Source: Curtobacterium sp. A7_M15 (GTDB taxonomy: Bacteria; Actinomycetota; Actinomycetes; Actinomycetales; Microbacteriaceae). From it: a DNA stretch of 57,151 bases. How positions within the stretch are numbered: the first letter of the stretch is position 1; every line of letters starts with the position of its first letter. The DNA lies in contig NZ_JAUZED010000009.1 in assembly GCF_030705415.1 (NCBI RefSeq), positions 1 through 57,151 of the forward strand, given 5' to 3'. The notes beneath the pieces are model-generated. The model made no database searches. It was given only the letters and a program-made list of their open reading frames with translations, and was not told the origin of the DNA. This document shows, in pieces, positions 4,915 through 55,724 of the stretch. The translations under genes were made by a program, and so were the position numbers.

Positions 4915-6117
4915 TCAGGCGACGTAGGCGCGCGTCGCCGCCACGAGGGCGTCGACGCCCACCGGGATCGCCGTCTCTGCCTGCGGTGCGTAGAACGGCG
5001 AGTGGTTGCTCGGGATGTCCTCGCCGCGACGGAACAGCTCCGGGTCGGTGATGCCGGTGAACCAGTAGACGAGCGGCGCCCCCGCAGCGGTGGCGAGCTG
5101 ACCGACGTCCTCGGACGCCATCGCCAGGCCGATCTCGAGGTCACGCGCACCGGGGACCTCGGCGCGGATCGCGTCGAGCACGGTCTGGGCGGCCTCGGCG
5201 TCGTTCACGGTGACCTCGGCGCCCGGCGACCGCACGATGGTCGGCTCGGGCAGCCCGCCGGCCTCGCTCTCGGCGCGGACGATGCGCTCGATCGACGCGA
5301 TGATGCGCTCGCGGGTCTCCTCGTTGCGTGCCCGCGTGGAGATCTCGATGACGGCCTGGTCGGGGATGATGTTCGCGCGGGTGCCGGCGTGGAAGCTGCC
5401 CACCGTGACGACCCCGGCGTCGCTCGGCGAGACCTCGCGCGAGACGACCGTCTGCAGGCGGACGACGGCCGACGCTGCGGTGACGACCGGATCGAGGGAC
5501 GCCTGCGGCGCGGAACCGTGCGCACCGCGGCCGTTGAACGTGACGGTCAGCCGGTCGCTCGACGCCATCACCGGGCCGCTGCCGACCGCGACGATGCCGA
5601 CCGGCGCCGGCGCCGAGTGCTGCCCGAGCACGACGTCGGGCTTCGGGAAGCGCTCGACGAGGCCGTCCTCGACCATCGCCCGCGCGCCCGAGATGACCTC
5701 TTCCGCCGGCTGGAAGACGGCAACGACGGTACCGTGCCAGTCGCCCGTGGTGGCCGCGAGACGCTCGAGGGTGCCGAGCAGCCACGTCACGTGGATGTCG
5801 TGGCCGCACGCGTGCATCGTCGGGACGTCGTTGCCGTCCTCGTCGGTGCTGTGGTGCTCGCTGGCGTAGGGCAGGCCGGTGCGCTCCTGGACCGGCAGCC
5901 CGTCCATGTCGGCTCGGAGCCAGACGACGGGCCCCTCGCCGTTCGACAGGACGCCGACGACACCCGTGCCGCCGACGCCCGTCGTGACCTCGATCCCGCC
6001 GATCTCGGCGAGCCGGTCGGCGACGATGCCCGCCGTGCGGTGCTCCTGGAAGCCGAGCTCGGGGTGGGCGTGGAGGTCCTGGTACAGCGAGAGGAGGTCG
6101 AGAGTCACGCGCACCAC
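4915..6117 (-). CDS. M20 family amidohydrolase/peptidase
   Basis: A metal-dependent amidohydrolase of 400 residues in the M20D group (N-acyl amino acid, hippurate or IAA-conjugate hydrolases). Visible motifs are HPELGFQEHRTAG at residues 15-27, LRADMDGLPVQE, the metal-binding HACGHDIHVTWLLG, and the catalytic Glu in FQPAEEV. The dimerisation/lid domain (around GRGAHGSAPQ) is intact. It probably acts in the cytoplasm on N-acylated amino acids; the substrate cannot be assigned. Start is ambiguous between two adjacent GTG codons at 6117 and 6114, or GTG at 6108. It is separated from typA by a strong hairpin. Confidence 0.9.
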   Translation of the reverse strand: MVRVTLDLLSLYQDLHAHPELGFQEHRTAGIVADRLAEIGGIEVTTGVGGTGVVGVLSNGEGPVVWLRADMDGLPVQERTGLPYASEHHSTDEDGNDVPTMHACGHDIHVTWLLGTLERLAATTGDWHGTVVAVFQPAEEVISGARAMVEDGLVERFPKPDVVLGQHSAPAPVGIVAVGSGPVMASSDRLTVTFNGRGAHGSAPQASLDPVVTAASAVVRLQTVVSREVSPSDAGVVTVGSFHAGTRANIIPDQAVIEISTRARNEETRERIIASIERIVRAESEAGGLPEPTIVRSPGAEVTVNDAEAAQTVLDAIRAEVPGARDLEIGLAMASEDVGQLATAAGAPLVYWFTGITDPELFRRGEDIPSNHSPFYAPQAETAIPVGVDALVAATRAYVA

Positions 6118-42220: not shown

Positions 42221-42270
42221 CGACGCCGGCCGCACTGCGGCGCTGCCCGGTCCGGTCGAGCCCCGGTGGT

Positions 42271-42284
42271 ATTGTCACGACAAT
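42271..42284. promoter_or_regulatory. Candidate operator of the GntR (IolR-like) regulator
   Basis: ATTGTCACGACAAT, a perfect 6-2-6 dyad 21 bases before the ATG at 42306 and overlapping a TATTGT -10-like box. Its core TGTCACGACA is nearly identical to TGTCATGACA in the iolC promoter at 55646-55655. Confidence 0.75.
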
Positions 42285-42305
42285 CCCTACTGCTGAAGGA
42301 CCGCG

Positions 42306-43064
42306 ATGACCAACGAAGGCCAGCTGCCGTCCGACCTGTTCCTGGACCTGGACCGGTCGGGTCCGATGCCCCTGTACTTCCAGGTCGCCTCGCGCATCGA
42401 GGAGTCGATCCGCTCCGGCGCGATGCCCCCTGGTGCCCGGCTCGAGAACGAGATCGCGCTCGGCGAGCGCCTCGGGCTGTCACGGCCGACGATCCGTCGA
42501 GCGATCCAGGACCTCGTCGACAAGGGGCTGCTCGTCCGTCGCCGCGGGATCGGGACCCAGGTCGTGCACGGTCCGGTGACCCGCAAGGTGGAGCTGACGA
42601 GCCTGTACGACGACCTCGCGCAGGGGTCGCAGGCTCCGGCGACGAAGCTCCTGGAGCGCAACGACGTCCCCGCTCCGGACGCTGTCGCCGACGCGCTCGG
42701 CATCGCCCCGGGCACCACCGTCGCCCACATCCGCCGCGTGCGCTTCGCCGAGGACGTGCCGATGGCGATCCTCGAGAACTACCTGCCGCCGGAGTTCCTC
42801 GAGATCACCGACGAGGACCTGCAGACCCATGGCCTGTACCAGCTGCTCCGTGGCCGCGGGGTGACGATGCGGGTCGCGAAGCAGCGGATCGGCGCCCGCT
42901 CGGTCACCGACGAGGAGGCCTCGCTGCTCGAGATCGAGGACGGCGACCCGGTGCTGACGATGAGCCGCACGGCGTACGACGCGTCCGGTCGAGCGGTCGA
43001 GTACGGCGTGCACTGCTACCGGCCCGACCGCTACTCGTTCGAGGTCACCCTCGTCGACAAGTAG
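42306..43064 (+). CDS. iolR: GntR family regulator with UTRA domain, probable IolR
   Basis: A 252-residue repressor. The N-terminal GntR winged helix (YFQVASRIEESIRSGAMPPGARLENEIALGERLGLSRPTIRRAIQDLVDKGLLVRRR) is joined to a UTRA effector domain of the HutC subgroup. Two facts tie it to inositol: a TGTCNNGACA dyad precedes both this gene and iolC, and corynebacterial iol operons are controlled by a GntR-type IolR. The dyad at its own promoter implies autoregulation. The effector is unknown, perhaps an inositol breakdown intermediate. The start ATG has GAAGGA upstream. Confidence 0.85.
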   Translation: MTNEGQLPSDLFLDLDRSGPMPLYFQVASRIEESIRSGAMPPGARLENEIALGERLGLSRPTIRRAIQDLVDKGLLVRRRGIGTQVVHGPVTRKVELTSLYDDLAQGSQAPATKLLERNDVPAPDAVADALGIAPGTTVAHIRRVRFAEDVPMAILENYLPPEFLEITDEDLQTHGLYQLLRGRGVTMRVAKQRIGARSVTDEEASLLEIEDGDPVLTMSRTAYDASGRAVEYGVHCYRPDRYSFEVTLVDK

Positions 43065-43086
43065 GCCGGACCGACGCCGCTCGGGA

Positions 43087-43494
43087 TCACGCCAGCGCCG
43101 GTACCCCCAGCTCGCCCGTCACGTACTGCGCGCGTCCGAACCCGAACGACCAGTCCTGCGGGCCGTTCTCGACGTACCCGATGAAGACGTCCTCGGACGC
43201 CACGCCGATCGCGGCGAGCGCGTCGTGGATCGCCGCGTAGAGCGTGGTCTTCGCCTCGTCCGAGCGTCCGCGCTGCGTGAAGACCTGGATCACGATGACA
43301 CCTTCGGTGCGCTCGAAGCCGAGGCCGGCATCCTCGGCGATGATCTGCTGCGCCGGGTGCTCGGTGATGACCTGGAATCGGTCGCGGACGGGGATCCCGT
43401 ACACGTCGACGATGGCGGTGTGGATCGCGTCGGCGATGGCACGGACCGCCTCGGGCGTGCGGCCGGTGGCGAGGTCGATACGGACGAGCGGCAT
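43087..43494 (-). CDS. Tautomerase family protein
   Basis: A 135-residue protein beginning MPLVRIDL after removal of an unneeded upstream extension. The N-terminal Pro becomes the catalytic residue of tautomerases after Met cleavage. It is twice the length of 4-oxalocrotonate tautomerase, fitting the fused malonate-semialdehyde decarboxylase/cis-CaaD-like or Tautomerase_2 group. AGGAGG is placed 4 bases before the ATG. Malonate semialdehyde is an inositol-pathway intermediate, so a link to the neighbouring operon is possible but unproven. Confidence 0.85.
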   Translation of the reverse strand: MPLVRIDLATGRTPEAVRAIADAIHTAIVDVYGIPVRDRFQVITEHPAQQIIAEDAGLGFERTEGVIVIQVFTQRGRSDEAKTTLYAAIHDALAAIGVASEDVFIGYVENGPQDWSFGFGRAQYVTGELGVPALA

Positions 43495-43564
43495 GGTTCC
43501 TCCTGCTGGTGTGGGAATTTGTAAGGACATATTAACAAGCGGCGTCCCAGAAGTCACCATATGA

Positions 43565-43608
43565 CGGACGGGAGGCGCGGTGCCAGCTGGCACCGCGCCT
43601 CCCGTCCG
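43565..43608. terminator. 44-bp perfect palindrome at the end of the iol operon
   Basis: Arms 43565-43586 and 43587-43608 are exactly complementary. The sequence is identical to 16503-16546. It lies 14 bases beyond the stop of the last operon gene and before the tautomerase gene. Terminator function is likely. Confidence 0.8.
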
Positions 43609-43621
43609 AACCGGTGAGCGT

Positions 43622-44815
43622 CTAGATCACGGGGGTCGCCGCGTCGTAGGTGAGCGTCCCGTCGACGCGCGCGACGTCGTGCCACGCCCCGTCGGCGAGG
43701 GAGGCCTCCGCCGCTTCCACGATCGACGCGGTCGCCAGCCCGTCCGCCACGGAGGGTGCGAGCTGCTCCCCGCGACGGACGCTCGCGACGAACTGCGCCG
43801 CTTCGATCGTCTTGAGGTCGTCGTAGCCCATGGCGGTGCCGGCCCCCGGCTGGAAGCGGGCGAACTCGCCGTCCCCGGGTGCGACGAAGTGGGTGGCGTA
43901 GCCGTCGACCTCCTGGCCGTCGAGGTACACCTCGAGCTCGTTCAGCCGCTGGAAGTCCCACCGGACCGAACCCTTCGTGCCGTAGACCTCGAGCGCGTAC
44001 TCGGCGTGCGGGCCGCGCATCACCCGACTGGAGTCCATCGTGCCGACCGCCCCGCCCTCGAACCGGAAGAGCAGCGCCGCGTAGTCCTCGTTCTCGACGG
44101 GCTTCCGCTCCCCCGTCGCGGCCGCACTGCGGTCGACGATGCCGGCGCCCGGCAGCGGACGGTCGGTGATGAAGGTCTCGGCGAGCGCCGTCACACTCGC
44201 GATCCGACCGACGACGTACTGGGCGAGGTCGAGGCCGTGCGAGAGCAGGTCGCCGAGGACCCCGGAGCCGGCGCGCTCGCGTTCGAAGCGCCAGGTCAGC
44301 GGAGCGGCGGGGTCGGACGAGTAGTCGGCGAGCAGTGCACCGCGGACGTTCGTGATCCGGCCGAGCCGACCGGTGCGCACGAGTTCGCGTGCCCGTTCGA
44401 TGGCCGGCGCGTGCCGGTAGTTGAACCCGACGCTGGTGATGACGCCCGTGCGCTGAACGGCCTCGTGGATCTGTCGGGAGTCGCTGGCGTAGCGCCCCAT
44501 CGGCTTCTCGATCCAGAACGGCTTGCCTGCCTCGGCTGCGGCGACGGCCATCTCGCGGTGCAGGAAGTTCGGCGAGCAGATGGAGACGACGTCGACGGAC
44601 GGGTCGGCGAGGACCTCGTGGTGGTCGGCGACCGCGCGCTCGTACCCGAGCCGGGTGGTGGCCTGCTCGCGTGCCGCGCCGATCGGGTCGGCGGCGACGA
44701 CGAGGCGCGGTTGGATGCCGAGCTCCGGGAAGTGGTCGGGCAGGGCACGGTAGGCGCGTGAGTGCAGCCTGCCCATCCAGCCGACCGAGATCAGGCCGAC
44801 GCCGATGCTGTCCAT
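43622..44815 (-). CDS. Gfo/Idh/MocA family NAD(P)-dependent dehydrogenase
   Basis: A 397-residue oxidoreductase. It has an N-terminal Rossmann fold (GLISVGWMGRLHSRAY) and IEKPMGRY carrying the conserved Lys, then the C-terminal alpha/beta domain with the active-site HGLDLAQYVVG. It is the last gene of the iol operon and is much longer than the IolG at 47091. A role on scyllo-inositol, a methyl-inositol or another sugar acid is likely by context. GAAGGAG precedes the ATG. A long inverted repeat separates it from the transaldolase gene, so its expression may be uncoupled. Confidence 0.9.
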   Translation of the reverse strand: MDSIGVGLISVGWMGRLHSRAYRALPDHFPELGIQPRLVVAADPIGAAREQATTRLGYERAVADHHEVLADPSVDVVSICSPNFLHREMAVAAAEAGKPFWIEKPMGRYASDSRQIHEAVQRTGVITSVGFNYRHAPAIERARELVRTGRLGRITNVRGALLADYSSDPAAPLTWRFERERAGSGVLGDLLSHGLDLAQYVVGRIASVTALAETFITDRPLPGAGIVDRSAAATGERKPVENEDYAALLFRFEGGAVGTMDSSRVMRGPHAEYALEVYGTKGSVRWDFQRLNELEVYLDGQEVDGYATHFVAPGDGEFARFQPGAGTAMGYDDLKTIEAAQFVASVRRGEQLAPSVADGLATASIVEAAEASLADGAWHDVARVDGTLTYDAATPVI

Positions 44816-44904
44816 GGGAACTCCTTCGTTCGCGTGGCGCCCTGGTTGGAGCGCGCCAACGAGTCTATCGCGGCGCCGCTCGTTTGTCAGCACATGCACC
44901 TGGA

Positions 44905-44976
44905 GCGACTTCACGCGCTGAACGACAGTTCGTGGGCGACGTGCCCCGTGAACTGTCGCCCAGCGCGTGAGGTCGC
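44905..44976. repeat. Long imperfect inverted repeat inside the iol operon
   Basis: Left arm 44905-44937 pairs with right arm 44943-44976 over about 33 bp with a few mismatches that are mostly G-U compatible. It lies 12 bases after the transaldolase stop. It resembles the inverted repeat at 16561-16638 in size and placement but not in sequence. Confidence 0.65.
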
Positions 44977-44988
44977 AGGGCTTGCGCG

Positions 44989-46101
44989 CTACACGGCGGG
45001 GACGATGATGTCCCGCACGAGGGCGTCGAGCTTCGCGTCCGCGTCGAGGAACTGGCGCAGGGTCGTCACCGTCGCACCGAAGCGGTCGAACTCGTCGATC
45101 GTCATGCCGTCGACGTCGTAGCCGCGCGCGAACTCGGGTGTCGCCGCACGGAGCGCCGCGATGACCTCGGCCGGCACCTCGTCGTCGATCGCGTCCGGAC
45201 GCCACGGGAACGCGTTGTCGTTGATGTCCTTCGACCACTGGAACGGCGGCGAGACCACGAGGTCCCCGCCCTGGAACTCCGACCACTGCAGCGGGTTCCG
45301 GAAGGCTGCGACGAGCACACGAGACCGGAAGCCGCGCTCCTGGAAGACCCGGTAGGCGTTCTTCACCGCGGCGACGCCGGCCCACTCGAGGATGCCCGGG
45401 TCCACCATGACGTGGTCGCGCTTCACGACGGTCTTGAGCCAGTCGTCGAACCGGCCGGCCATGAGCGTGACGACGTGGCCGAACTCCTGCTCCGGCAGCC
45501 CCTCCGCAGCGCGGCGGTCGAGGGCACGCTCGATGGCCTCGCCGACGGCGATGACCTGCGGCACGGTGAACGACACGGTGGCGTTGATCGAGACGCCGCG
45601 GTAGGCGGCCTCCTCGATCGCGGCGATGCCGACCTTCGTGGCGGGGATCTTCACGATGATGTTCGGGGCGAGCTCGGAGAACCGGACGGCCTGCTCGACG
45701 AGCGCGTCCTGGTCACGGTGGAAGCGCGGGTCGGTCTGCATCGACAGGCGACCGTTGCGGCCGCCCGACGCCTCGAACGCCGGCAGCAGCTGCTCGGCGG
45801 CGGCGATGGAGAGCTCCTCGACCGCCTTCCAGCCGATCCAGGACTCCCCCGCGGTCGGGTTCTCGGCCGCGATCTCGCGGATGCGCGGCTCCCAGGTCTC
45901 GGGGTCCTGCTTGATGCAGGTGTAGGCGATCACGGGGTTGCAGGTCGCGCCGACGGCACCGTACTCGTGGATGGCGGTGGACAGCTCGCGCGGGTCCGCT
46001 GAGTCGTTCCAGAGCGCGGTCACGGTCTGTTCCGCCGCCTGCAGGGTGACGGGGCGGGTGTCGACGCCGGTGGACGTCGGGGTCTCCAACGTGGTCGTCA
46101 T
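44989..46101 (-). CDS. Transaldolase family protein
   Basis: A 370-residue class I aldolase of the transaldolase family. The Schiff-base lysine is in NIIVKIPATKVGIAAIEEA, and TCNPVI (residue about 53) and SINATVSFT are other barrel-strand motifs. Length and divergence set it apart from housekeeping Tal. Inositol catabolic operons of the textbook type do not include a transaldolase. Here it lies directly behind iolH, so it may replace or supplement the aldol-cleavage step, or shunt products to the pentose phosphate pool. Substrate unproven. Start ATG at 46101. Confidence 0.88.
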   Translation of the reverse strand: MTTTLETPTSTGVDTRPVTLQAAEQTVTALWNDSADPRELSTAIHEYGAVGATCNPVIAYTCIKQDPETWEPRIREIAAENPTAGESWIGWKAVEELSIAAAEQLLPAFEASGGRNGRLSMQTDPRFHRDQDALVEQAVRFSELAPNIIVKIPATKVGIAAIEEAAYRGVSINATVSFTVPQVIAVGEAIERALDRRAAEGLPEQEFGHVVTLMAGRFDDWLKTVVKRDHVMVDPGILEWAGVAAVKNAYRVFQERGFRSRVLVAAFRNPLQWSEFQGGDLVVSPPFQWSKDINDNAFPWRPDAIDDEVPAEVIAALRAATPEFARGYDVDGMTIDEFDRFGATVTTLRQFLDADAKLDALVRDIIVPAV

Positions 46102-46176
46102 GGGTTCTCCGATCTCTCGCGTCCGCCGTGGTGTGGGTCGGACTGCCGCGTTTCGCTGGTGGTGCGGGGGAAGTGC

Positions 46177-46208
46177 ACCGGGCCGGTGCGGGAACACACC
46201 GGCCCGGT
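46177..46208 (-). terminator. Intra-operon hairpin after iolH
   Basis: ACCGGGCCGGTG (46177-46188) pairs perfectly with CACCGGCCCGGT (46197-46208) around an 8-base loop. It lies 7 bases after the iolH-like stop. It is probably an attenuator or RNA-stabilising hairpin, separating the conserved iol genes from the transaldolase. Confidence 0.6.
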
Positions 46209-46214
46209 CGGGTC

Positions 46215-47087
46215 CTACTGCCGGCCGAGGCCCTTGGTGATCTCGGCGAGCTGGTACTTGGAGACCTCGTCGGCGTTCTCGTCCTCGGCGAACACGCTCG
46301 AGACGGCGACGGTGTCCTCGCGGGCGCTGAAGCCGACGCGGTCGAGCGCGGCCCAGAACGCGTCGAAGTCGACGTCGGCGGCGCCGACCGGCAGGTGCTG
46401 GTGCACGCGGGCCGTGTTGCCGGGCGGGTTCGAGATGTACCGGAGGCCGTGCGACCGCTTGTGGTCGTAGGCGTCCGCGACGTGGATCAACTGCAGCGAG
46501 TCGCCCGCGGCGTCGATGATCTCGTCCATGTTCCCGCCGTAGTGGAACGTGTGGCAGGCGACGTACACGAAGCCGACGTGCTTCGAGTTGAGCCCGCGGA
46601 TCACCCGGAGCGCCTCGAGGCCGTCCTCGACGAAGTCGTCGGGGTGCGGGTCGATGAGCACGCGGATGTCCGACGCCTCGATGATCGGCAGGAGCTCCTC
46701 CATGGCCCAGTAGAACTGGTCCTCGGACTCCTCGGCGCGCTCGGGACGGCCGGAGAACTCCGTGTTGATCGTGTCGACGCCGAGGCGCTTCGCGATCTCG
46801 ATGACGCGCTTCCACTTCTTGACCGCGGCCTCGCGGGTCTCCCTGTCGGGACCCGACCAGCGGAGGACCGGCAGGATGCTCGCCACCTGGACGCCGGCGT
46901 CCCTCGACGCCGCGGCGAAGGCGTCGACGAGGTCGTCGTCGGCCTTGGGGTGTGTGTAGAAGGGGATGAAGTCCTTGTGCGGGGTCAGCTGCAGGTACTC
47001 GTACCCGAGGTCGGCGACCTTCCGCGGGAACTCGAGCAGCGACAGGTCGTGGTGGAACGGCGTCGGGTCGAGTGCGATCTTCGGCAC
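46215..47087 (-). CDS. iolH: Sugar phosphate isomerase/epimerase family protein (IolH type)
   Basis: A 290-residue TIM barrel of the AP-endonuclease-2/xylose isomerase-like superfamily. Metal-ligand segments are NTEFSGRP, LIDPHPDDF, FVYVACHTFHYGG and QLIHVADAYD. Start GTG at 47087, three bases after the iolG stop. In corynebacterial iol clusters a gene of this kind (iolH) follows iolG at the same place. The reaction it catalyses in inositol breakdown is not established; inosose isomerase (IolI-like) is one possibility. Confidence 0.85.
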   Translation of the reverse strand: MPKIALDPTPFHHDLSLLEFPRKVADLGYEYLQLTPHKDFIPFYTHPKADDDLVDAFAAASRDAGVQVASILPVLRWSGPDRETREAAVKKWKRVIEIAKRLGVDTINTEFSGRPERAEESEDQFYWAMEELLPIIEASDIRVLIDPHPDDFVEDGLEALRVIRGLNSKHVGFVYVACHTFHYGGNMDEIIDAAGDSLQLIHVADAYDHKRSHGLRYISNPPGNTARVHQHLPVGAADVDFDAFWAALDRVGFSAREDTVAVSSVFAEDENADEVSKYQLAEITKGLGRQ

Positions 47088-47090
47088 CGG

Positions 47091-48146
47091 TCACGCCCCC
47101 GCGAGCTCGTCGACGGCGGTGATGTCGTAGAACGCGGGCTTCTCGAGCGCGTACTCGACGGCCTCGTCCGCGCCGGACTGCTGCGCACGGACCGCGACCT
47201 CGGCGACGACGGACGCCGTGTAGCCGTCCCAGGCGCTCGGCCCGTCGATCCCACCGAGGCGAGCGGCGTCGACCCAGCGCTGGACCTCTTCGTCGTAGGC
47301 GGCAGCGAAGCGCTCCGTGAACGACGGGGTGACGCCCTGGCCGGAGACACCGGCCGACACGATGGTCTGCGAGGTCTCGCGGCCGATGTACGCGACACCG
47401 GACTCGAACACCGCGTCGGTCGTGACCTGGTAGCCGAACTGGGCGTTCACGTTGATCTCGACGATCGCGAGGATCCCCGACTCGGTGGTGAACAGCACGA
47501 ACTGCGGCTCCGGCAGGTCCGCCGGCGCCAGGGAGTTCTTCCGCGGCTTCTTGACCTCGACGTTCGTGATCTTCTCGCCCGTGAGGAACGGGATGATGTC
47601 GATCTCGTGGATCACCGAGTCGTGGATGAGCATCGACTCGCTGAAGTTCGGCGGGGTGGTCGGGTTGCGGTGCGCGTGGTGCAGGGCAAGCAGCGCGCCG
47701 TTGTCGCCGGACTCCCGGAGCGCCTTGAGCTCCTGGTAGCCGGCGTCGAAGCGGCGCATGAAACCGACCTGGATCGTCGGGCGGTCGGCCTTCTCCTGCT
47801 CGAGCTCGACGATGCGCAGGCTGTCCTCGGCGCTCGTCGTGAGGGGCTTCTCGCAGAGCACGGCGAGACCGTGCTCGAGCGCCGTCACCAGGATGGGCTC
47901 GTGCAGGAAGCCCGGGGTGGCGATGATGACGCCGTCGATCTCGGTCTGCTCGAGGGCCTCGTCGAACGACGCGGCGGTGATCGCACCCGGGGCGAGGGCG
48001 GCCGCCGCCTGGGCGCGCGCCTGGTCCGGCTCGACGACCGCGACGACGTCGGCGTTCGAGATCTTGGCGGTGATGCGGCGGACGTGGTCGGCGCCCATCA
48101 TGCCGGCGCCGACGACGGCGACGCGGAGGTTTCCGGTGGTGCTCAT
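47091..48146 (-). CDS. iolG: Inositol 2-dehydrogenase
   Basis: A 351-residue Gfo/Idh/MocA dehydrogenase, which would oxidise myo-inositol to scyllo-inosose with NAD. The Rossmann motif is AVVGAGMMGADHVRR, the conserved EKP is CEKPLTTS, and the catalytic region has SVIHEIDIIPFLTG (Asp-Ile..., His). Position between iolE and iolH matches corynebacterial operons. Start ATG at 48146 has AGGAGAAGC upstream. The frame is open beyond, but only through sequence antisense or out of frame to iolE. Confidence 0.92.
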   Translation of the reverse strand: MSTTGNLRVAVVGAGMMGADHVRRITAKISNADVVAVVEPDQARAQAAAALAPGAITAASFDEALEQTEIDGVIIATPGFLHEPILVTALEHGLAVLCEKPLTTSAEDSLRIVELEQEKADRPTIQVGFMRRFDAGYQELKALRESGDNGALLALHHAHRNPTTPPNFSESMLIHDSVIHEIDIIPFLTGEKITNVEVKKPRKNSLAPADLPEPQFVLFTTESGILAIVEINVNAQFGYQVTTDAVFESGVAYIGRETSQTIVSAGVSGQGVTPSFTERFAAAYDEEVQRWVDAARLGGIDGPSAWDGYTASVVAEVAVRAQQSGADEAVEYALEKPAFYDITAVDELAGA

Positions 48147-48187
48147 GTGCTTCTCCTGTGGTGGGTGGCGCTGCGTGGACGGCGACG

Positions 48188-49141
48188 TCAGGACGCGCGG
48201 GCTGCGGAGGTGGAACCGAAGATGTGCTTGAAGGTACGGTCCGCGATGGGGCCGGGAGTGTCGACCGAGCAGCCGTACATGTCCTGCTCGACGATGCCGA
48301 AGATGTCCGGGTTGATCCGCGCGACGGCCTCGATGATCGGTGCGAGGTCGGGCGTGCCGAACGGCGGCTCGACCATGATCCCCTGCGACACGGCGGTGGC
48401 GAACGGCACGTCGTTCTTCAGCACGTCGAACAGCAGGTCGGTGTTGACCTGCTTGAGGTGCAGGTAGCCGACGCGCTCCGGGTGCTCGGCGATGAGCTTG
48501 AGGTTGTCGCCGCCGTAGTACGCGAAGTGCCCGGTGTCGAGGCAGAGGTTCGTGTACTCGGGGTTCGTCACCTCGAGGAACCGCACGGTCTCCTTGTAGG
48601 TGCCGACGTGGCTGTCCGCGTGGGTGTGGAACTGCTGGTGGACGCCGAACTCCTCGAGCAGCGCCTTGCCGAGCTGGTCGTGCCCCTTGCCGAGGCGCTC
48701 CCACTGCTCGTCCGTGAGCGTGCGCGGCTCGAGGACCTCTTCGGTGGCGTCCGAACGCCACAGGTCCGGGATCGTGACGAGGTGCTCGGCGCCGAGCTTC
48801 GAGGCGAGCCCCGCCACCGCGACGGCCTGGTCCCAGGCGCGCTGGAACTGGTCGTCGCCCTTGTGGAACCCGGTGAACACGGTGCCGGCGGACAGCTTGA
48901 GGCCGCGCGACTCGAGTTCGTCGGAGAGTTGCGAAGGGTCCGTCGGCAGGTACCCGTACGGCCCGAGCTCGATCCACGTGTAGCCGGCCGCGACGACCTC
49001 GTCGAGGAAGCGCTGCCACGGCACCTGCTTCGGGTCGTCCGGGAACCAGACGCCCCACGAGTCGGGGGCCGTGCCGATACGGATCTGGGCGGTCTGCGTG
49101 TCCGCTGCGGAGCTACCGGTCGGGGTGGCGGTGTCGGTCAT
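48188..49141 (-). CDS. iolE: Inosose dehydratase
   Basis: A 317-residue TIM barrel. IolE dehydrates scyllo-inosose to a diketo-cyclohexane derivative. The family hallmark GTAPDSWGVWFPDDP is at residues 24-38, followed by GYTWIELGPYGYLP. Metal and active-site segments are FHTHADSHVG, LCLDTGHFAYYGG and YLHLKQVN. The first 20 residues are an unstructured Thr/Ala/Ser-rich leader. A gap of 39 bp separates it from iolD. Confidence 0.93.
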   Translation of the reverse strand: MTDTATPTGSSAADTQTAQIRIGTAPDSWGVWFPDDPKQVPWQRFLDEVVAAGYTWIELGPYGYLPTDPSQLSDELESRGLKLSAGTVFTGFHKGDDQFQRAWDQAVAVAGLASKLGAEHLVTIPDLWRSDATEEVLEPRTLTDEQWERLGKGHDQLGKALLEEFGVHQQFHTHADSHVGTYKETVRFLEVTNPEYTNLCLDTGHFAYYGGDNLKLIAEHPERVGYLHLKQVNTDLLFDVLKNDVPFATAVSQGIMVEPPFGTPDLAPIIEAVARINPDIFGIVEQDMYGCSVDTPGPIADRTFKHIFGSTSAARAS

Positions 49142-49180
49142 GACGTCGCTGTCGCTTTCTGCTGTGGTGGACGGATCGGA

Positions 49181-51082
49181 TCAGCCGAGCAGCGGTCGCT
49201 GCGATGCGACCTGCTGCTCGTACTCGGCACGGGCCTGCTGGGTGCTCTCCAGCGTCGAGGTCTGGGCGACGGGGACGTCCCACCAGCCCTCGCCGTCGGG
49301 TGCGTAGACCAGCGGGTCGGAGTGGACGTGGACGAGCGTGGTGTGGTCGTTCGCCTTCGCCTGGCGGACCGCTGCCGTGAGTTCCTCGATGGCGTTCGGC
49401 CCGGGCTGCACCTCGATGACGTCCACGCCGTAGGACCGGGCGTTCGCGGCGAGGTCGACGGGGAGCACGTCGTCGCCCTCGAACGAACCGGTCTCGTCGA
49501 GGTAGCGGTACTTCGTGCCGTACCGCTCGGACCCGACGGTCTCGGACAGGTGGCCGATCGACGCGTAGCCGTTGTTCTGGATGAGGACGACGACGATCTT
49601 GATGCCCTCGGCCACCGCGGTCACGAGCTCGGTGTGGAGCATGAGGTACGAGCCGTCGCCGACCATGACGATCGCGTCGCGGTCCGGGGCGCCCCGGCGG
49701 ACGCCGATGCCGCCCGCGATCTCGTAGCCCATGCACGAGAACGCGTACTCGACGTGGTACCCGAGGGCGTCGCGCACACGCCACAGCTTGTGCAGGTCGC
49801 CAGGCAGCGAGCCCGCAGCCTGGATGACGACGTCCCGCGGGTCGGTCGCGGCCTGCACCGCACCGATGATCTCCGGCTGGCCGGGCAGCGCGAGCCCGGA
49901 CGGCGCGAACGCGGCGTCGACCGTCTCGTCCCAGGAACGCTTGCGGTCCGCGATCTCCGACGCGTAGTGGTCCGGCACCGAGTACGACGTGAGCTGCTCC
50001 GTGAGGGCGACCAGCGCCTCCCGGGCGTCCGCGACCAGCGGCAGCTGCGAGCCGTGCTTGTAGGCGTCGAAGGCCGCGACGTTGACGTTGACGAACGTCA
50101 CGTCCGGATCCTGGAAGGCCGTGCGCGACGCCGTGGTGAAGTCGCTGTACCGCGTCCCGATCCCGATCACGACGTCCGCCCGCGCGGCGATGGCGTTCGC
50201 GGCCGCGGTGCCCGTCGCGCCGATGCCACCGAGGTACTGCGGGTGGTCCCAGACGAGGGAGCCGCCGCCGGCCTGCGAGGTGCCGACGGGGATGCCGGTC
50301 GCCTCGACGAAGGCGGCGAGCTCGTCCTCGGCACCGGAGTAGAGCACGCCACCGCCGGCGACGATGACCGGACGCTTCGCGGCGCGGATCGCCGACACCG
50401 CGCGGGCCAGGGGGCCGTGCTCGGGGAGCGGTCGGCGGATGTGCCACTCGCGCGGCTGGAGGAACGCGACGGGGACGTCGAACTCCTCGGCCTGCACGTC
50501 CTCCGGCAGGGCGATCGTCACGGCGCCGGTCTCGGCCGGGTCGGTGAGGACGCGCATGGCCGCGAGGGCGATCGAGAACAGCTGCTCCGGACGCTCGACG
50601 CGGTCGAAGTAGCGCGAGAGCGGACGGAACGCGTCGGTGACCTGCAGCGACGTGTCGTGCGGCAGCTCGATCTGCTGGAGCACCGGGTCCGTGGTGCGCG
50701 TCGCGAAGGTGTCCGACGGGAGCAGGAGCGCGGGCAGGCGGTTCGTCGTCGCGAGGGCGGCGGCGGTCAACATGTTCGCGGCACCCGGGCCCACCGAGGC
50801 CGTGCTGGCGAAGGTGGCACGGCGACGGTGCATGCGGGCGAAGCCGACGGCCTCGTGCACCATCGCCTGCTCGTTGCGGGCCTGGTGGTACGGCAGCAGG
50901 CCGGGCTGCTCGACGTGGAGCTGCTTGATGGCCTGGCCGACGCCGGCGACGTTGCCGTGCCCGAAGATGCCGAAGATCCCCGGGATGGTGCGCTCGCGGA
51001 CGTCGCCGTCGACGGTCCACTGGTTGGCCAGGAACTCGACGAGGGCCTGGCCGACGGTCATCCTCCGCGTGTTGGTGGTCAC
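49181..51082 (-). CDS. iolD: 3D-(3,5/4)-trihydroxycyclohexane-1,2-dione hydrolase
   Basis: Thiamine-diphosphate enzyme of 633 residues that opens the inosose-derived ring to 5-deoxyglucuronate. It has the three-domain ThDP layout. The N-terminal domain carries the catalytic Glu region near residue 67 (LPYHQARNEQAMVHEA), and the C-terminal domain holds the ThDP/Mg motif VMVGDGSYLMLHTEL...QNNGYASI. Start is GTG at 51082, overlapping the iolB stop (GTGA). A longer reading running through iolB is an artefact. Confidence 0.95.
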   Translation of the reverse strand: MTTNTRRMTVGQALVEFLANQWTVDGDVRERTIPGIFGIFGHGNVAGVGQAIKQLHVEQPGLLPYHQARNEQAMVHEAVGFARMHRRRATFASTASVGPGAANMLTAAALATTNRLPALLLPSDTFATRTTDPVLQQIELPHDTSLQVTDAFRPLSRYFDRVERPEQLFSIALAAMRVLTDPAETGAVTIALPEDVQAEEFDVPVAFLQPREWHIRRPLPEHGPLARAVSAIRAAKRPVIVAGGGVLYSGAEDELAAFVEATGIPVGTSQAGGGSLVWDHPQYLGGIGATGTAAANAIAARADVVIGIGTRYSDFTTASRTAFQDPDVTFVNVNVAAFDAYKHGSQLPLVADAREALVALTEQLTSYSVPDHYASEIADRKRSWDETVDAAFAPSGLALPGQPEIIGAVQAATDPRDVVIQAAGSLPGDLHKLWRVRDALGYHVEYAFSCMGYEIAGGIGVRRGAPDRDAIVMVGDGSYLMLHTELVTAVAEGIKIVVVLIQNNGYASIGHLSETVGSERYGTKYRYLDETGSFEGDDVLPVDLAANARSYGVDVIEVQPGPNAIEELTAAVRQAKANDHTTLVHVHSDPLVYAPDGEGWWDVPVAQTSTLESTQQARAEYEQQVASQRPLLG

Positions 51083-51984
51083 GCGAGCTTCCTTTCGTAG
51101 GGCAGGCGCGGGTCGAGCTGCTCGCTCTCCCAGGCCTGGCGGACCCAGCCGTGTGCCGGGTCGTCGGTGATGTTCCAGACGCGCTCCGGGTCGGGCCCGG
51201 CCATCACGTTCAGGTAGTACATGTCGTAGCCGGGTGCGGCGACGGCGGGGCCGTGCCAGCCGTGCGGGACGAGGGCGATGTCGCCGGTCCGGACCTCGCG
51301 GAACTCGTCGATCTCGCGCTCGTCCGAGGCGTAGGTGCGATGCAGCGCGAACGGGTCCACCTCGGCCGGGACCGGGATCCCGCGCGACACGACGTCGCGG
51401 GCGACAGCCGCCTCGTAGTAGTAGATCTCCTCGAGGTTCGACTCCTCGCCGGGGACGTTCGTGTCGTGCTTGTGCGGCGGGTACGACGACCAGTTGCCGG
51501 CCGGCGTGATCACCTCGCACACGATGAACTTCGCCGCGTCGAGCGCTGCCGGGGTGCCGAAGTTGTGCACCTGACGGCTCGACCGGCCGGCGCCGCGGAG
51601 CTCCACCGGGACGTCCTGCCGCGCGATGTACGTCGTCGGCTCGACGGTCTCGGTGGGTGCTTCGGCCACCGCGACACGGCCGCTTCCGGTGATCGTCGCT
51701 GCGGTCCCGGACCCGAGGTACAGGACGTCGGTCGGACCCTCGAAGACGCTGGCGCGTCCGTCGAGGGCCTGCGTGGTGCCGTCGTACGCCACCGTGAAGC
51801 TGCCGGCGAGCGGGACGACGATGCGTTCCACCGCATCGGACGGGAGGCGCAGCTCGCCTCCGTCGCGGAGGGCGCCGGTCCGCAGACCGGTGTGCGCCCA
51901 CCCCGGGACCCGCCCGTCCACCACGTCCGTCCAGCCCGCCTCGGGGCGGGAGCCCGCGGGGATGAACCAGTTGTCGTTCGTCAT
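51079..51984 (-). CDS. iolB: 5-deoxy-glucuronate isomerase
   Basis: A bicupin of 301 residues that converts 5-deoxyglucuronate to 2-deoxy-5-keto-gluconate. The metal-binding cupin motif is PPHKHDTNVPGEESNLEEIYYYE, and the C-terminal cupin has LVPHGWHGPAVAAPGYDMYYLN. It overlaps iolD by 4 bp and follows iolA after 8 bp. Confidence 0.95.
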   Translation of the reverse strand: MTNDNWFIPAGSRPEAGWTDVVDGRVPGWAHTGLRTGALRDGGELRLPSDAVERIVVPLAGSFTVAYDGTTQALDGRASVFEGPTDVLYLGSGTAATITGSGRVAVAEAPTETVEPTTYIARQDVPVELRGAGRSSRQVHNFGTPAALDAAKFIVCEVITPAGNWSSYPPHKHDTNVPGEESNLEEIYYYEAAVARDVVSRGIPVPAEVDPFALHRTYASDEREIDEFREVRTGDIALVPHGWHGPAVAAPGYDMYYLNVMAGPDPERVWNITDDPAHGWVRQAWESEQLDPRLPYERKLA

Positions 51985-51992
51985 CGGGTGCG

Positions 51993-53504
51993 TCAGCCGT
52001 TCGACGGGAAGCCGAGGTTGATGCCGCCGTGCGACGGGTCGAGCCAGCGGCTCGTGATCGCCTTCTGCCGCGTGAAGAAGCTCACGCCGTCGGCGCCGTA
52101 CGCCTTGTGGTCGCCAAACAGCGAGTTCTTCCAGCCGCCGAACGAGTAGTAGGCCACCGGCACCGGGATCGGGACGTTGATGCCGATCATGCCGACCTGC
52201 ACGTCGCGCTGGAAACGACGGGCGGCGCCGCCGTCGTTCGTGAAGATGGCCGTGCCGTTGCCGAACGCGCCGGAGTTGATGAGCTCCAGGCCCTCCTCGT
52301 AGGACTGCACCCGGACGACGGACAGCACCGGGCCGAAGATCTCCTCGGTGTACACGCGGCTCGTGGTGGGGACCCGGTCGATCAGCGTCGGGCCCAGCCA
52401 GAAGCCGTTCTCGTCGCCGTCGGGTCGGACGGTGCGGCCGTCCACCACAACCACCGCACCGTCCTGCTCTGCGACCTCGATGTACGAGGCGACCTTGTCA
52501 CGGTGCTGCTTCGTGACGAGCGGACCCATGTCGCACCCGCGACGGCCGTCGCCGATGCGCAGGGTCGCTGCGCGGTCCTTGATCTTCTCGATGAGCTCGT
52601 CCGCCACCGGCTCGACCGCGACGACGACCGAGATCGCCATGCAGCGCTCGCCAGCCGAGCCGAAGCCCGCGTTGATCGCGTTGTCCGCGACGAGGTCGAG
52701 GTCGGCGTCCGGCAGGACGAGCATGTGGTTCTTCGCGCCGCCGAGGGCCTGCACGCGCTTGCCGTGCTTCGTGCCCGTCTCGTAGACGTACTGCGCGATC
52801 GGCGTCGACCCGACGAACGAGATCGACTCGACGTCCGGGCTGGTGAGGAGCCCGTCGACGCTCAGCTTGTCGCCGTTGAGGACGTTGAACACGCCGTCGG
52901 GCAGGCCGGCCTCCGTGAACTTCTCGGCCAGCCAGATCGCCGCCGACGGGTCCTTCTCGCTCGGCTTCAGCACGACGGTGTTGCCGGCCGCGATCGCGAT
53001 CGGGAGGAACCAGAGCGGCACCATCGCCGGGAAGTTGAAGGGACTGATGAGGCCCACGACGCCGAGCGGCTGGCGGATCGAGTACACGTCGATGCCGGTC
53101 GACACCTGGTCCGAGAACTCGCCCTTGAGCAGGCTCGGGATGTTCGTGGCCAGCTCGACGACCTCCTGTCCGCGGGCGATCTCGCCGAGGGCGTCGTCGA
53201 TGACCTTGCCGTGCTCGCTCGTGATGATCTCGGCGAGCTCCGCCTTGTCGCGGTTCAGGATCTCGCGGAAGGAGAACAGGATCGCCTGGCGCTTCGCGAG
53301 GGACATGTTCGCCCACTTCGGGAACGCCGCCTTGGCGCTGGCGATCGCCGCCTGGATCTCGTCCTCGTTCGCGAGGGCGACCTGCTTCGTCGCGACGCCG
53401 AGGGCCGGGTCGAACACGGGAGCGGTGTTGCCGGACGCGGACTCGACGCGCGCGCCGTCGATCCAGTGGCCGACCGTTGTGGTGGACGTCTCCGTGATGG
53501 TCAT
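51993..53504 (-). CDS. iolA: CoA-acylating methylmalonate/malonate-semialdehyde dehydrogenase
   Basis: An aldehyde dehydrogenase of 503 residues (MmsA/IolA family) that turns malonate semialdehyde into acetyl-CoA and CO2 at the end of the pathway. The catalytic Cys is in GFGSAGERCMAISV, and the substrate/CoA region is FPAMVPLWFLPIAIAAGN. No signal peptide. A 58-bp gap lies before it. Its place between the Cgl0158-like gene and iolB follows the corynebacterial order. Confidence 0.95.
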   Translation of the reverse strand: MTITETSTTTVGHWIDGARVESASGNTAPVFDPALGVATKQVALANEDEIQAAIASAKAAFPKWANMSLAKRQAILFSFREILNRDKAELAEIITSEHGKVIDDALGEIARGQEVVELATNIPSLLKGEFSDQVSTGIDVYSIRQPLGVVGLISPFNFPAMVPLWFLPIAIAAGNTVVLKPSEKDPSAAIWLAEKFTEAGLPDGVFNVLNGDKLSVDGLLTSPDVESISFVGSTPIAQYVYETGTKHGKRVQALGGAKNHMLVLPDADLDLVADNAINAGFGSAGERCMAISVVVAVEPVADELIEKIKDRAATLRIGDGRRGCDMGPLVTKQHRDKVASYIEVAEQDGAVVVVDGRTVRPDGDENGFWLGPTLIDRVPTTSRVYTEEIFGPVLSVVRVQSYEEGLELINSGAFGNGTAIFTNDGGAARRFQRDVQVGMIGINVPIPVPVAYYSFGGWKNSLFGDHKAYGADGVSFFTRQKAITSRWLDPSHGGINLGFPSNG

Positions 53505-53562
53505 GCGTGCTTCCTTCGGTGTGGTGGAGGTCTTCGTTGCTGGTCGTCGGGCGCGCTGGGTC

Positions 53563-54537
53563 TCAGGCGCTGACGGGCTGTTCGCTGTCGAGGGCGGGCT
53601 GTTCGCCGTCGAGGGCGGGCTGTTCGCTGTCGATCGCGGGCAGTTCGCTGCCGGAGTGGACGAGACGCGCGGCCACGTCCACCGCTGCGGCGACGTCGCC
53701 GTCCGGTGGGTAGAGCAGCGTGCGGCCCACGACGAGACCGCGGACTCCCGGCAGGGCGAGGGCGTCGGCCCACTTCGCGTACGTCTCGAGCGGGCGGCTC
53801 GACGGGTCGCCGCCGAGGAGGAGCGTCGGGAGCGTCGTCGCCGCCATCACCCGCTCCATGTCGTCGACGACGGGCACCTTCAGCCAGCTGTAGGCGCTCG
53901 ACTCACCGAGGCCGGCGGCGATGGCCATCGAGGTGATCACCGCGTCGGCCGTCAGGTCGTTGACGATCTTGTCGTCCTTCCACCGGGACATGAACGGCTC
54001 GAGCATGATCGGCAGCTGGTGCTCGGCGGCCTCGGTGACGGCGCGCGCCGTGGCCTCGAGCGTCGGGGCGGTGCCGGCGTCGGCGAGGTTCACCCGGACG
54101 AGGAGCTTGGCGAAGTCGAGCCCGGCCTGCTTGATCGACGCGGCCGAGTACGCGGTGTAACGGTCGTCCATCTCGAACGTCGCGCCGCGCAGCCCGCCGC
54201 GGTTCATCGACCCGACGACGACCTTGCCGTCGAGGGCGCCGAGGAGAGCGAGGTCCTCGAGGATGTCCGGCGTGCCGAGCACCCCGTCGACGCCGGGGCG
54301 ACCGAGGGCGACGACGAGCCGCTCGAGCAGGTCGTAGCGGTTCGCCATGGCCGACTCGTCGTCGCGGACCGCGAGGGCACCTCGGGCGGGGTGGTCGGCC
54401 GCGACGATGAACAGCTTGCCGTCGTCGGCGAGCAGGCTCCGCCTCGTGCGGGCGGCCAGGGTGCTCGCGACGAGCTCCGGCTGCGCGGCACGGACGTCTC
54501 GGAGGCGCTGGAAGTCAGCGGCGCTGAGCTCAGGCAT
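53563..54537 (-). CDS. Cgl0158 family (beta/alpha)8 barrel protein, probable aldolase
   Basis: A 324-residue class I aldolase-like barrel. KLFIVAADHPARG gives an N-terminal Asp/His strand, KLLVRVNLADAG probably carries the Schiff-base Lys region, and PTLLLGGDPSSRPLE is a phosphate-binding-like loop. The same gene lies between iolC and iolA in Corynebacterium, where no IolJ is present, so it probably cleaves 2-deoxy-5-keto-gluconate-6-phosphate. That assignment is inference. Its C-terminus carries three heptad repeats of SEQPALD type. It overlaps iolC by 8 bp. Confidence 0.85.
   Translation of the reverse strand: MPELSAADFQRLRDVRAAQPELVASTLAARTRRSLLADDGKLFIVAADHPARGALAVRDDESAMANRYDLLERLVVALGRPGVDGVLGTPDILEDLALLGALDGKVVVGSMNRGGLRGATFEMDDRYTAYSAASIKQAGLDFAKLLVRVNLADAGTAPTLEATARAVTEAAEHQLPIMLEPFMSRWKDDKIVNDLTADAVITSMAIAAGLGESSAYSWLKVPVVDDMERVMAATTLPTLLLGGDPSSRPLETYAKWADALALPGVRGLVVGRTLLYPPDGDVAAAVDVAARLVHSGSELPAIDSEQPALDGEQPALDSEQPVSA
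53575..53637 (-). repeat. Three 21-bp tandem repeats in the barrel-protein 3' end
   Basis: Units 53575-53595, 53596-53616 and 53617-53637 differ by only a few bases and encode the heptads SEQPALD, GEQPALD and a variant with AID. They add an acidic, unstructured tail to the barrel protein. Confidence 0.85.
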
Positions 54538-55576
54538 CGACCTTCTCCTCGGTGCTGTCGTTGGTGGCGGTGCTGTCGTCGGTGGCGGTGTGGCTGAGCC
54601 CCTCGGCGGGGTTCGACTGGATGAACTGCTCGATCTCGTCGCTCGTCGGCATCGCCGTGGAGCACTCGAAACGGGTGGCGACGATCGCGCCGGCTGCGTT
54701 GCAGAACGCGAGGATGCGCTCGAGACTCCAGCCCTGCAGCAGACCGTGGGTGAGCGCACCGCCGAACCCGTCGCCCGAGCCGAGGCCGTTCACGACGTCG
54801 ATGTGGTGCGGACGGAACTCGACGAACTCGTCGCGGGTCTTCGCCAGGACGCCCTTGGGGCCCTGCTTCACGATCGCGATCTCGACGCCGCGCTCGAGCA
54901 GGGCGTCGGCGGCGCGGACGGGGTCGGTCTCACCGACGGCGACCTCGCACTCCTCGCGGTTGCCGACGGCGACGGTCGCGTGCTCGAGGGCGACGGCGAC
55001 CTCGCGGGTCGCGGCCTCGGGCGACGACCAGAACATGGACCGGTAGTCGAGGTCGAGCACGGTGTGGAGCTTCGTGCTGCTGGTGGACGCGCTCCGCGCC
55101 TCGAAGGCGGTGTGGTGGGCGCTGCGGCTCGGCTCCTCGCTGAGGCCGGTCACCGTCGTCCAGAAGACCTTCGCGCGCTCGATCTCGTGCAGCGGCAGGG
55201 ACTTCGCCGTGATCATGAGGTCCGGCGCCTTCGGGGCCCGGTAGAAGTACAGCGGGAAGTCGTCCGGCGGGAAGATCTCGCAGAACGCGACCGGGGTGTT
55301 CAGCCCCTCGACGGTCTCGACGAAGTCGTTGGCGACGCCGAACTCGGGCAGGGTGCGGGCGATGTAGCGACCGAACGGGTCGTTGCCCGTACGGGTGATG
55401 ACGGCCGCGTCGGCACCGTGGCGTGCAGCAGCGATCGCGACGTTCGTCGCGCTGCCGCCGACGGACTTCGAGAACGTGGGGACGTCCTCGAGCGGACCCG
55501 TCTGCTGCGGGTAGATGTCGACGCTCACACGACCCATGGTGATCACGTCGTAGGCGTGGGGAACTCGGTGCGTCAT
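54530..55576 (-). CDS. iolC: 5-dehydro-2-deoxygluconokinase
   Basis: PfkB-family kinase of 348 residues that phosphorylates 2-deoxy-5-keto-gluconate. The N-terminal sugar-binding motif is SVGGSATNVAIAAARHG, and the C-terminal ATP motif NGLGSGDGFGGALTHG carries the catalytic Asp (GSGD for the usual GAGD). The last 25 residues are a Thr/Asp/Ser-rich tail. First gene of the operon: a -35/-10 promoter with an operator dyad lies about 50-80 bases upstream. Start ATG at 55576 (MTHRVPHAYDVITMGR). Confidence 0.95.
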   Translation of the reverse strand: MTHRVPHAYDVITMGRVSVDIYPQQTGPLEDVPTFSKSVGGSATNVAIAAARHGADAAVITRTGNDPFGRYIARTLPEFGVANDFVETVEGLNTPVAFCEIFPPDDFPLYFYRAPKAPDLMITAKSLPLHEIERAKVFWTTVTGLSEEPSRSAHHTAFEARSASTSSTKLHTVLDLDYRSMFWSSPEAATREVAVALEHATVAVGNREECEVAVGETDPVRAADALLERGVEIAIVKQGPKGVLAKTRDEFVEFRPHHIDVVNGLGSGDGFGGALTHGLLQGWSLERILAFCNAAGAIVATRFECSTAMPTSDEIEQFIQSNPAEGLSHTATDDSTATNDSTEEKVDA

Positions 55577-55622
55577 GCGACGTGGTGGACCTTCCGTGCG
55601 GCTTCATCGGCGGACGATCACG

Positions 55623-55656
55623 ACTGTACACCCACTTTGCCCTAATGTCATGACAT
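55623..55656 (-). promoter_or_regulatory. iol operon promoter with IolR-type operator
   Basis: On the minus strand, -35 ATGACA (55646-55651) and -10 TACAGT (55623-55628) are separated by exactly 17 bases. The -35 box sits inside the perfect 12-bp dyad ATGTCATGACAT (55645-55656). Repressor bound there would block RNA polymerase. The core TGTCATGACA fits the IolR consensus I recall from C. glutamicum (KGWCHTRACA). Confidence 0.8.
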
Positions 55657-55724
55657 GGATTGGCGGACTGGTGCCCACCGGTCCCAGGAGGCGCGGTGTC
55701 GGTGGGTCCTGCCAAGGTCGCGTC

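Follow-up and report, generated by a model that had tools for sequence, protein, structure and literature searches.

Whether a regulator gene at the edge of an inositol gene cluster also controls that cluster is the question raised by a stretch of DNA from Curtobacterium sp. A7_M15 (contig NZ_JAUZED010000009.1, positions 1 to 57,151; the whole stretch of 57,151 nucleotides is hereafter called the window). The window encodes a protein with a GntR-type winged helix-turn-helix and a UTRA effector domain (both found with Pfam; gene gntR) next to a run of inositol catabolic genes led by iolC, and an inverted repeat with the core TGTCNNGACA precedes both gntR and iolC. A preliminary description of this DNA had read the two repeats as operators of an autoregulated IolR that represses a distant operon. 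We find that the GntR/UTRA protein is very probably an autoregulated IolR-type repressor of an inositol regulon; its binding, its effector and its repressor action are what we infer from sequence comparison. This regulon is probably larger than had been claimed and would take in four promoters of the window plus one likely promoter elsewhere in the genome.

Both dyads (TGTCACGACA at gntR and TGTCATGACA at iolC) are present where they had been described (Table 1). The gntR dyad overlaps with its left arm an extended -10 element (TGG-TATTGT, with TATTGT at 42270-42275), and the iolC dyad overlaps the -35 hexamer of a well-spaced promoter, both as proposed and both judged by reading of the sequence. 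Agreement with KGWCHTRACA, the motif ascribed to Corynebacterium glutamicum IolR, is complete for the iolC site (10 of 10 positions) and nearly so for the gntR site (9 of 10); a word search of the literature found this motif in no paper. The operon is not really distant: only its promoter is 13 kb away, and at the 3' end it comes near the regulator gene. Two further putative operators, which the preliminary description had not included, lie in the same cluster and precede a tautomerase gene and gfo, a Gfo/Idh/MocA dehydrogenase gene. All four were the only strong sites (scores of 17.7 to 22.7; next best 8.8) when the window was scanned with a matrix trained on 62 sites from 36 non-Curtobacterium genomes.

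Conservation within Curtobacterium was assessed from a set of 49 loci that hold a relative of the regulator; for 47 of them, the sequence was written out beginning at the start codon and inspected by eye. The block TGGTATTGTCACGACA upstream of gntR is nearly fixed amid freely variable surroundings, with small changes in L018, L029, L046, L049, L061, and L064 and with no site upstream of gntR in L051. The block ATGTCATGACATTAGGGCAAA..GTGTACAGT upstream of iolC is similarly fixed in 30 loci. For counting, a matrix score of at least 11 within 200 bases of the gene was required; the counts exclude L054-L060 (seven loci from other genera), alignments starting after residue 15 or with less than 60% identity, and starts less than 150 bases from a locus end, and L065 and L066 were not used. 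With this matrix, which contains no sites from the genus, gntR was found to have a matching site in 38 of 39 loci, iolC in 31 of 31, the tautomerase gene in 28 of 34, and gfo in 7 of 29. None was found before nine control genes of the region in the Curtobacterium loci, i.e., ychF (0/39), exo (0/38), tal (0/27), iolG (0/36), iolE (0/34), iolD (0/36), iolB (0/35), mmsA (0/42), and the Cgl0159-like gene (0/35). The rmuC gene has a site in 30 of 31 loci, as rmuC and iolC have a common upstream region; in the exception, L053, the iol operon has been lost from this place together with the site next to rmuC. At L053:6927-7330, the stretch from the tautomerase gene to iolC is deleted and short remnants of both appear by eye to lie between gntR and rmuC. 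The regulator gene and its own site are kept there despite the deletion.

Outside the genus, 36 of 37 genomes could be counted for each gene, the upstream stretch being missing in G081 for gntR and in G171 for iolC, and rows from Curtobacterium itself were left out. The strict pattern TGTN4ACA stands no more than 200 bases from gntR in 29 genomes and from iolC in 30 (of 36 each), compared with about 1.0 and 1.1 in shuffled upstream regions and a background of 0.009 per 209 bases in the rest of the same loci; where the two genes are divergent, one common site was counted for both. There are six iolC exceptions. In G093 and G167, an MFS gene stands directly in front of iolC and is itself preceded by the element ATTGACAGGACAT; in G103 and G132, a full site lies some 3 kb farther upstream (at G103 common to gntR), and the genes in between may form one operon; G111 and G115 have near variants scoring 15.5 and 15.4. 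Near variants also precede gntR in G115 (15.4) and G132 (13.8).

The reading of these sites as IolR-type operators has to be weighed against several observations, beginning with their number. The bare dyad TGTCNNGACA is present twice in the window versus 1.17 expected, a count reached by 34 of 100 shuffles, and it occurs 18 times in the 3.83-Mb genome (231 contigs) versus 7 for the backwards-read pattern. Coincidence, i.e., a palindrome of ten bases, eight of them fixed, arising by chance in two promoters, would be compatible with these counts, but we consider it exceedingly improbable, given that the sites are kept across species and genera while their flanks diverge, that the nine control genes lack them, and that a matrix from other genera recovers those of the window. 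The dyads stand above chance because of their position and conservation, not their count. With A/T flanks (WTGTN4ACAW), 17 sites are found genome-wide, four of them inside this 13.4-kb stretch (Poisson probability about 2e-7; the choice of this pattern followed the family survey). The expectation that the dyad should not be equally frequent in unrelated promoters was borne out only weakly for the bare core and more clearly for the flanked form.

Further points concern the spread of the sites. Thirteen of the 17 flanked matches lie outside the cluster, one of them scoring 20.8, and the matrix positions 3-5 and 10-12 (the TGT and ACA cores) cannot vary, given how the training set was built. In the other genera, the strict pattern is missing upstream of gntR in 7 of 36 genomes and of iolC in 6 of 36, and it stands before both genes in only 23 of 33; the gntR genes of G092, G166, G126, and G118 have no credible site, and that of G131 has a weak one (9.1). 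Within the genus, whose genomes are not independent, only the small minority of relatives noted above have the gfo site (in many of those without it, gfo appears by eye to lie close behind the transaldolase gene), and six of the 34 loci lack the tautomerase site (in L048 and L062, this gene is apparently directly behind the transaldolase gene). Likewise, the Curtobacterium genomes without gntR may form one clade, and three genomes with gntR (G032, G051, and G056) lack the transporter element described below.

Regulator and catabolic genes occur together. With presence defined as an E-value of at most 1e-70 and iolC as marker for the iol catabolic genes, 120 Microbacteriaceae genomes comprise 38 with both, two with gntR only, two with iolC only, and 78 with neither (Fisher 2e-26, uncorrected for kinship). 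Even the two iolC-only genomes carry a gntR gene, less similar in G120 (E-value of 1e-67) and cut by a contig end in G096 (74% identity over 78 residues). Among 60 Curtobacterium genomes, 52 have both genes, seven have neither, and only G027, the genome of L053, has gntR without iolC.

The likely promoter outside the window belongs to an MFS sugar porter gene of the source genome (C170:26745-28199), which has the variant TTGACAGGACAT upstream, with ATTGACAGGACATG at -74. We interpret this element as a hybrid of a weak IolR operator and a -35 hexamer, and the porter is the predicted inositol transporter. Upstream regions could be examined in 43 Curtobacterium genomes. Of the 37 with gntR, 34 have the element; of the six without gntR, none does, the MFS proteins of these six, which may be one clade, being only 76-84% identical. 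G026 (a partial match) was left out of this comparison, and no match was obtained in 4 of 40 and 2 of 10 genomes searched, the latter including G052, the seventh gntR-negative genome. In G027, which lacks iolC, the transporter element remains, as do gntR and the gntR site. In two genomes of one other genus, the element stands before adjoining MFS and iolC genes, and their MFS protein is 53% identical to the C170 porter versus 36% to the C158 porter of the source genome. Among 15 MFS loci of the source genome (taken from 49 PF00083 matches, some of which are pieces of one gene), 14 have no matrix match of at least 8, the remaining one being the C170 gene.

These distributions also bear on the possibility that the sites are bound by another regulator, such as a GntR/HutC paralogue or a global regulator, with the adjacent GntR protein as a bystander. 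Distant GntR paralogues (31-34% identity) do exist in the relatives, and some copies of the core in the source genome belong to other operators. We nevertheless regard a bystander role as quite improbable: the seven gntR-negative Curtobacterium genomes have no iolC, six of them carry the transporter gene without its element, and G062 and G083 keep both sites even with gntR and iolC far apart. The GT-N4-AC spacing of the sites is, moreover, that of the HutC subfamily (PMC4494728).

The core alone does not mark IolR sites specifically, and the assignment of every genomic TGTCNNGACA to IolR was rejected. Among the 13 flanked matches elsewhere, three, at or beside acn, icd, and sucC, are part of a separate common operator of 16 bases. 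Another has a MarR-type gene on one side and an SDR gene on the other, and nine, including the one that scores 20.8, are at other places. For three of these nine, the neighboring open reading frames were scanned, giving a PTA gene, a thioesterase gene together with a membrane-transport gene, and one frame without Pfam match; the copy in C30 appears by eye to lie inside a coding stretch, and the other five (L224-L228) were scored.

The second palindrome, TCTCGAYRTCRAGAYA, is found at three places only in the genome (at most one mismatch), namely upstream of the aconitase gene (L202:1500-1522, contig C167), at the start of the isocitrate dehydrogenase gene (L199:1500-1520, C146), and a short way in front of a succinyl-CoA ligase-type gene (L201:1496-1512, C163). 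It is a candidate operator of the tricarboxylic acid cycle. At L203:537-550, a perfect GTTGTCATGACAAC palindrome lies at the start of the SDR gene, which is divergent from the MarR-type gene, and is probably the operator of another regulator.

In the mechanism that we propose for the IolR-type repressor, a dimer would bind a palindrome of 10-14 bp (W-TGT-N4-ACA-W), with TGTCATGACA as the best version. Bound sites would cover the -10 element (gntR, tautomerase gene) or the -35 element (iolC operon, gfo) and, since they overlap promoter hexamers, binding would exclude RNA polymerase. Either myo-inositol or a catabolic intermediate may then bind the UTRA domain and release the repressor. In TTGACAGGACAT, a weaker variant that would control the C170 porter, the -35 hexamer replaces part of the left half-site. 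Activation by the GntR protein, or a dual role, is very improbable in our view: the iolC and gfo sites do overlap -35, a position used by some activators, but sites that overlap -10, as before gntR and the tautomerase gene, or coincide exactly with -35, as elsewhere, suit steric repression, and excerpts of two papers (PMC8634428, PMC9603128) describe C. glutamicum IolR as a repressor.

A more far-reaching idea, which we put forward only tentatively and consider rather doubtful, is that operator design orders induction in a graded regulon throughout the Microbacteriaceae. Full palindromes would shut down the catabolic operon along with the genes of the regulator and the tautomerase, and at the transporter, the -35 hexamer TTGACA would take the place of half the operator, giving a weak hybrid. 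If so, some uptake would continue before induction, and the tautomerase would be an unrecognized step or a detoxification enzyme of inositol breakdown.

The organization of the cluster is given in Table 1. The gntR gene is convergent with the tautomerase gene, which is followed by gfo and then by the tail of the minus-strand run that iolC leads. Four proteins of the window (IolC, MMSDH/IolA, IolB, and IolD) pass the NCBIfam cut-offs. Relatives of the regulator with at least 88% identity come from Curtobacterium at every named locus except one “Microbacteriaceae bacterium.” The regulator matches the C. glutamicum GntR-family protein 2p19 (E-value of 8.4e-44; 48% identity over 146 amino acids), which may be Cg0196; among the matches listed in a literature search on 2P19/2RA5, none was related.

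Table 1. Genes, putative operators, and promoter of the inositol cluster (window coordinates; E-values after the model names).
Feature	Position	Strand	Remarks
Putative operator of gntR	dyad TGTCACGACA 42273-42282; 14-mer ATTGTCACGACAAT 42271..42284		21 bases before ATG at 42306; matrix score 20.5
gntR/UTRA regulator gene (252 amino acids, predicted IolR)	42306..43064	+	Pfam GntR 7.1e-15, UTRA 5.5e-44
Tautomerase_2 family gene	43087..43494	-	Pfam PF14552 5.6e-30
Putative operator of tautomerase gene, TATGTCCTTACAAA on -	43518..43531		overlaps -10 TAATAT (43529-43534 on -); matrix score 22.7, best in window
Gfo/Idh/MocA dehydrogenase gene (gfo)	43622..44815	-	Pfam
Putative operator of gfo, CATGTGCTGACAAA on -	44883..44896		overlaps -35 CTGACA (44885-44890); 17-base spacer; -10 TAGACT (44862-44867); matrix score 17.7
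Transaldolase-like (TAL_FSA) gene, last in apparent iol operon	44989..46134	-	Pfam PF00923 1.1e-35
Sugar isomerase/epimerase gene (iolH-like)	46215..47087	-	weak NCBIfam IolO 1.4e-9, under cut-off
iolG-like inositol dehydrogenase gene	47091..48104	-	start approximate; NCBIfam IolG 4.3e-80, under cut-off
iolE-like gene	48188..49141	-	NCBIfam iolE 1.8e-37, under cut-off
iolD	49181..51079	-	NCBIfam iolD 5.9e-252, over cut-off
iolB	51079..51984	-	NCBIfam iolB 1.7e-74, over cut-off
iolA/mmsA methylmalonate-semialdehyde dehydrogenase gene	51993..53504	-	NCBIfam MMSDH 2.7e-206, over cut-off
Cgl0159-like gene	53563..54528	-	Pfam PF22649 Cgl0159 2.6e-128
iolC, first gene of operon	54530..55576	-	NCBIfam iolC 7.2e-107, over cut-off
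iolC core promoter	55623..55651	-	-35 ATGACA (55646-55651), 17-base spacer, -10 TACAGT (55623-55628), by reading; operator overlaps -35
Putative operator of iolC	dyad TGTCATGACA 55646-55655; 14-mer AATGTCATGACATG 55644..55657		69 bases before ATG at 55576; matrix score 21.0

Other features of the region were also seen. From the -10 element to the ATG of iolC (window 55577-55623), the 5' leader hardly varies among the 30 Curtobacterium loci compared. An inverted repeat of the GGAGGCGCGGTGCC type (window 43564-43604; L016 near 5060-5098) recurs intergenically in the source genome and its relatives. In L063, the chromosome of C. flaccumfaciens, gntR, iolG, iolE, and ychF each match in two pieces, which suggests sequencing errors.

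Repressors named IolR belong to several protein families. That of Bacillus subtilis is a DeoR-family protein and that of Sinorhizobium, going by the title of a reference, is RpiR-like; both have the name and the role of an inositol repressor but belong to other families than the Curtobacterium GntR protein. In keeping with its Pfam assignment to GntR/UTRA, the latter reaches only 19.3 bits with HTH_DeoR (cut-off of 21). With HutC-subfamily regulators of the GntR family (YvoA/NagR, DasR, HutC), it has in common the UTRA domain and, at its predicted sites, the GT-N4-AC spacing, but the published subfamily consensus (PMC4494728), GTMTAKAC, has a central TA, which is absent from the four sites of the window, where the center varies. 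A literature search joining inositol, GntR, Streptomyces, iol operon, and repressor found no paper. The only paper found with both “IolR” and “Curtobacterium” is a survey according to which 41% of 789 Microbacteriaceae species carry inositol gene clusters (PMC9430895).

The closest known system is that of C. glutamicum. Its IolR is, according to excerpts of PMC8634428 and PMC9603128, a GntR-type repressor of inositol genes, for which negative autoregulation has been suggested and of which iolT1 is a target. The Curtobacterium regulator gene differs in its location at the 3' end of the operon. A similar-looking cluster, including a Cgl0159-type gene, is found in C. glutamicum, whose IolR (Cg0196) has a UTRA domain. 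Further differences in Curtobacterium are the additional predicted targets (the tautomerase and Gfo/Idh genes), a transporter site that is a -35 hybrid, and gntR and iolC sites that are exact palindromes at eight positions. Phylogenetic footprinting within the genus and in other genera, gene co-occurrence, and recovery by the matrix from other genera all point to the common operator of the IolR-type gene and the iol operon that had first been proposed. A guess resting on two sites has thereby become a testable regulon for a common family of plant and soil bacteria, with a likely inositol transporter named and the tautomerase as a candidate member of the pathway. As an expected relative of the Corynebacterium system, this putative IolR-type regulon is now much better supported and extended by added targets.

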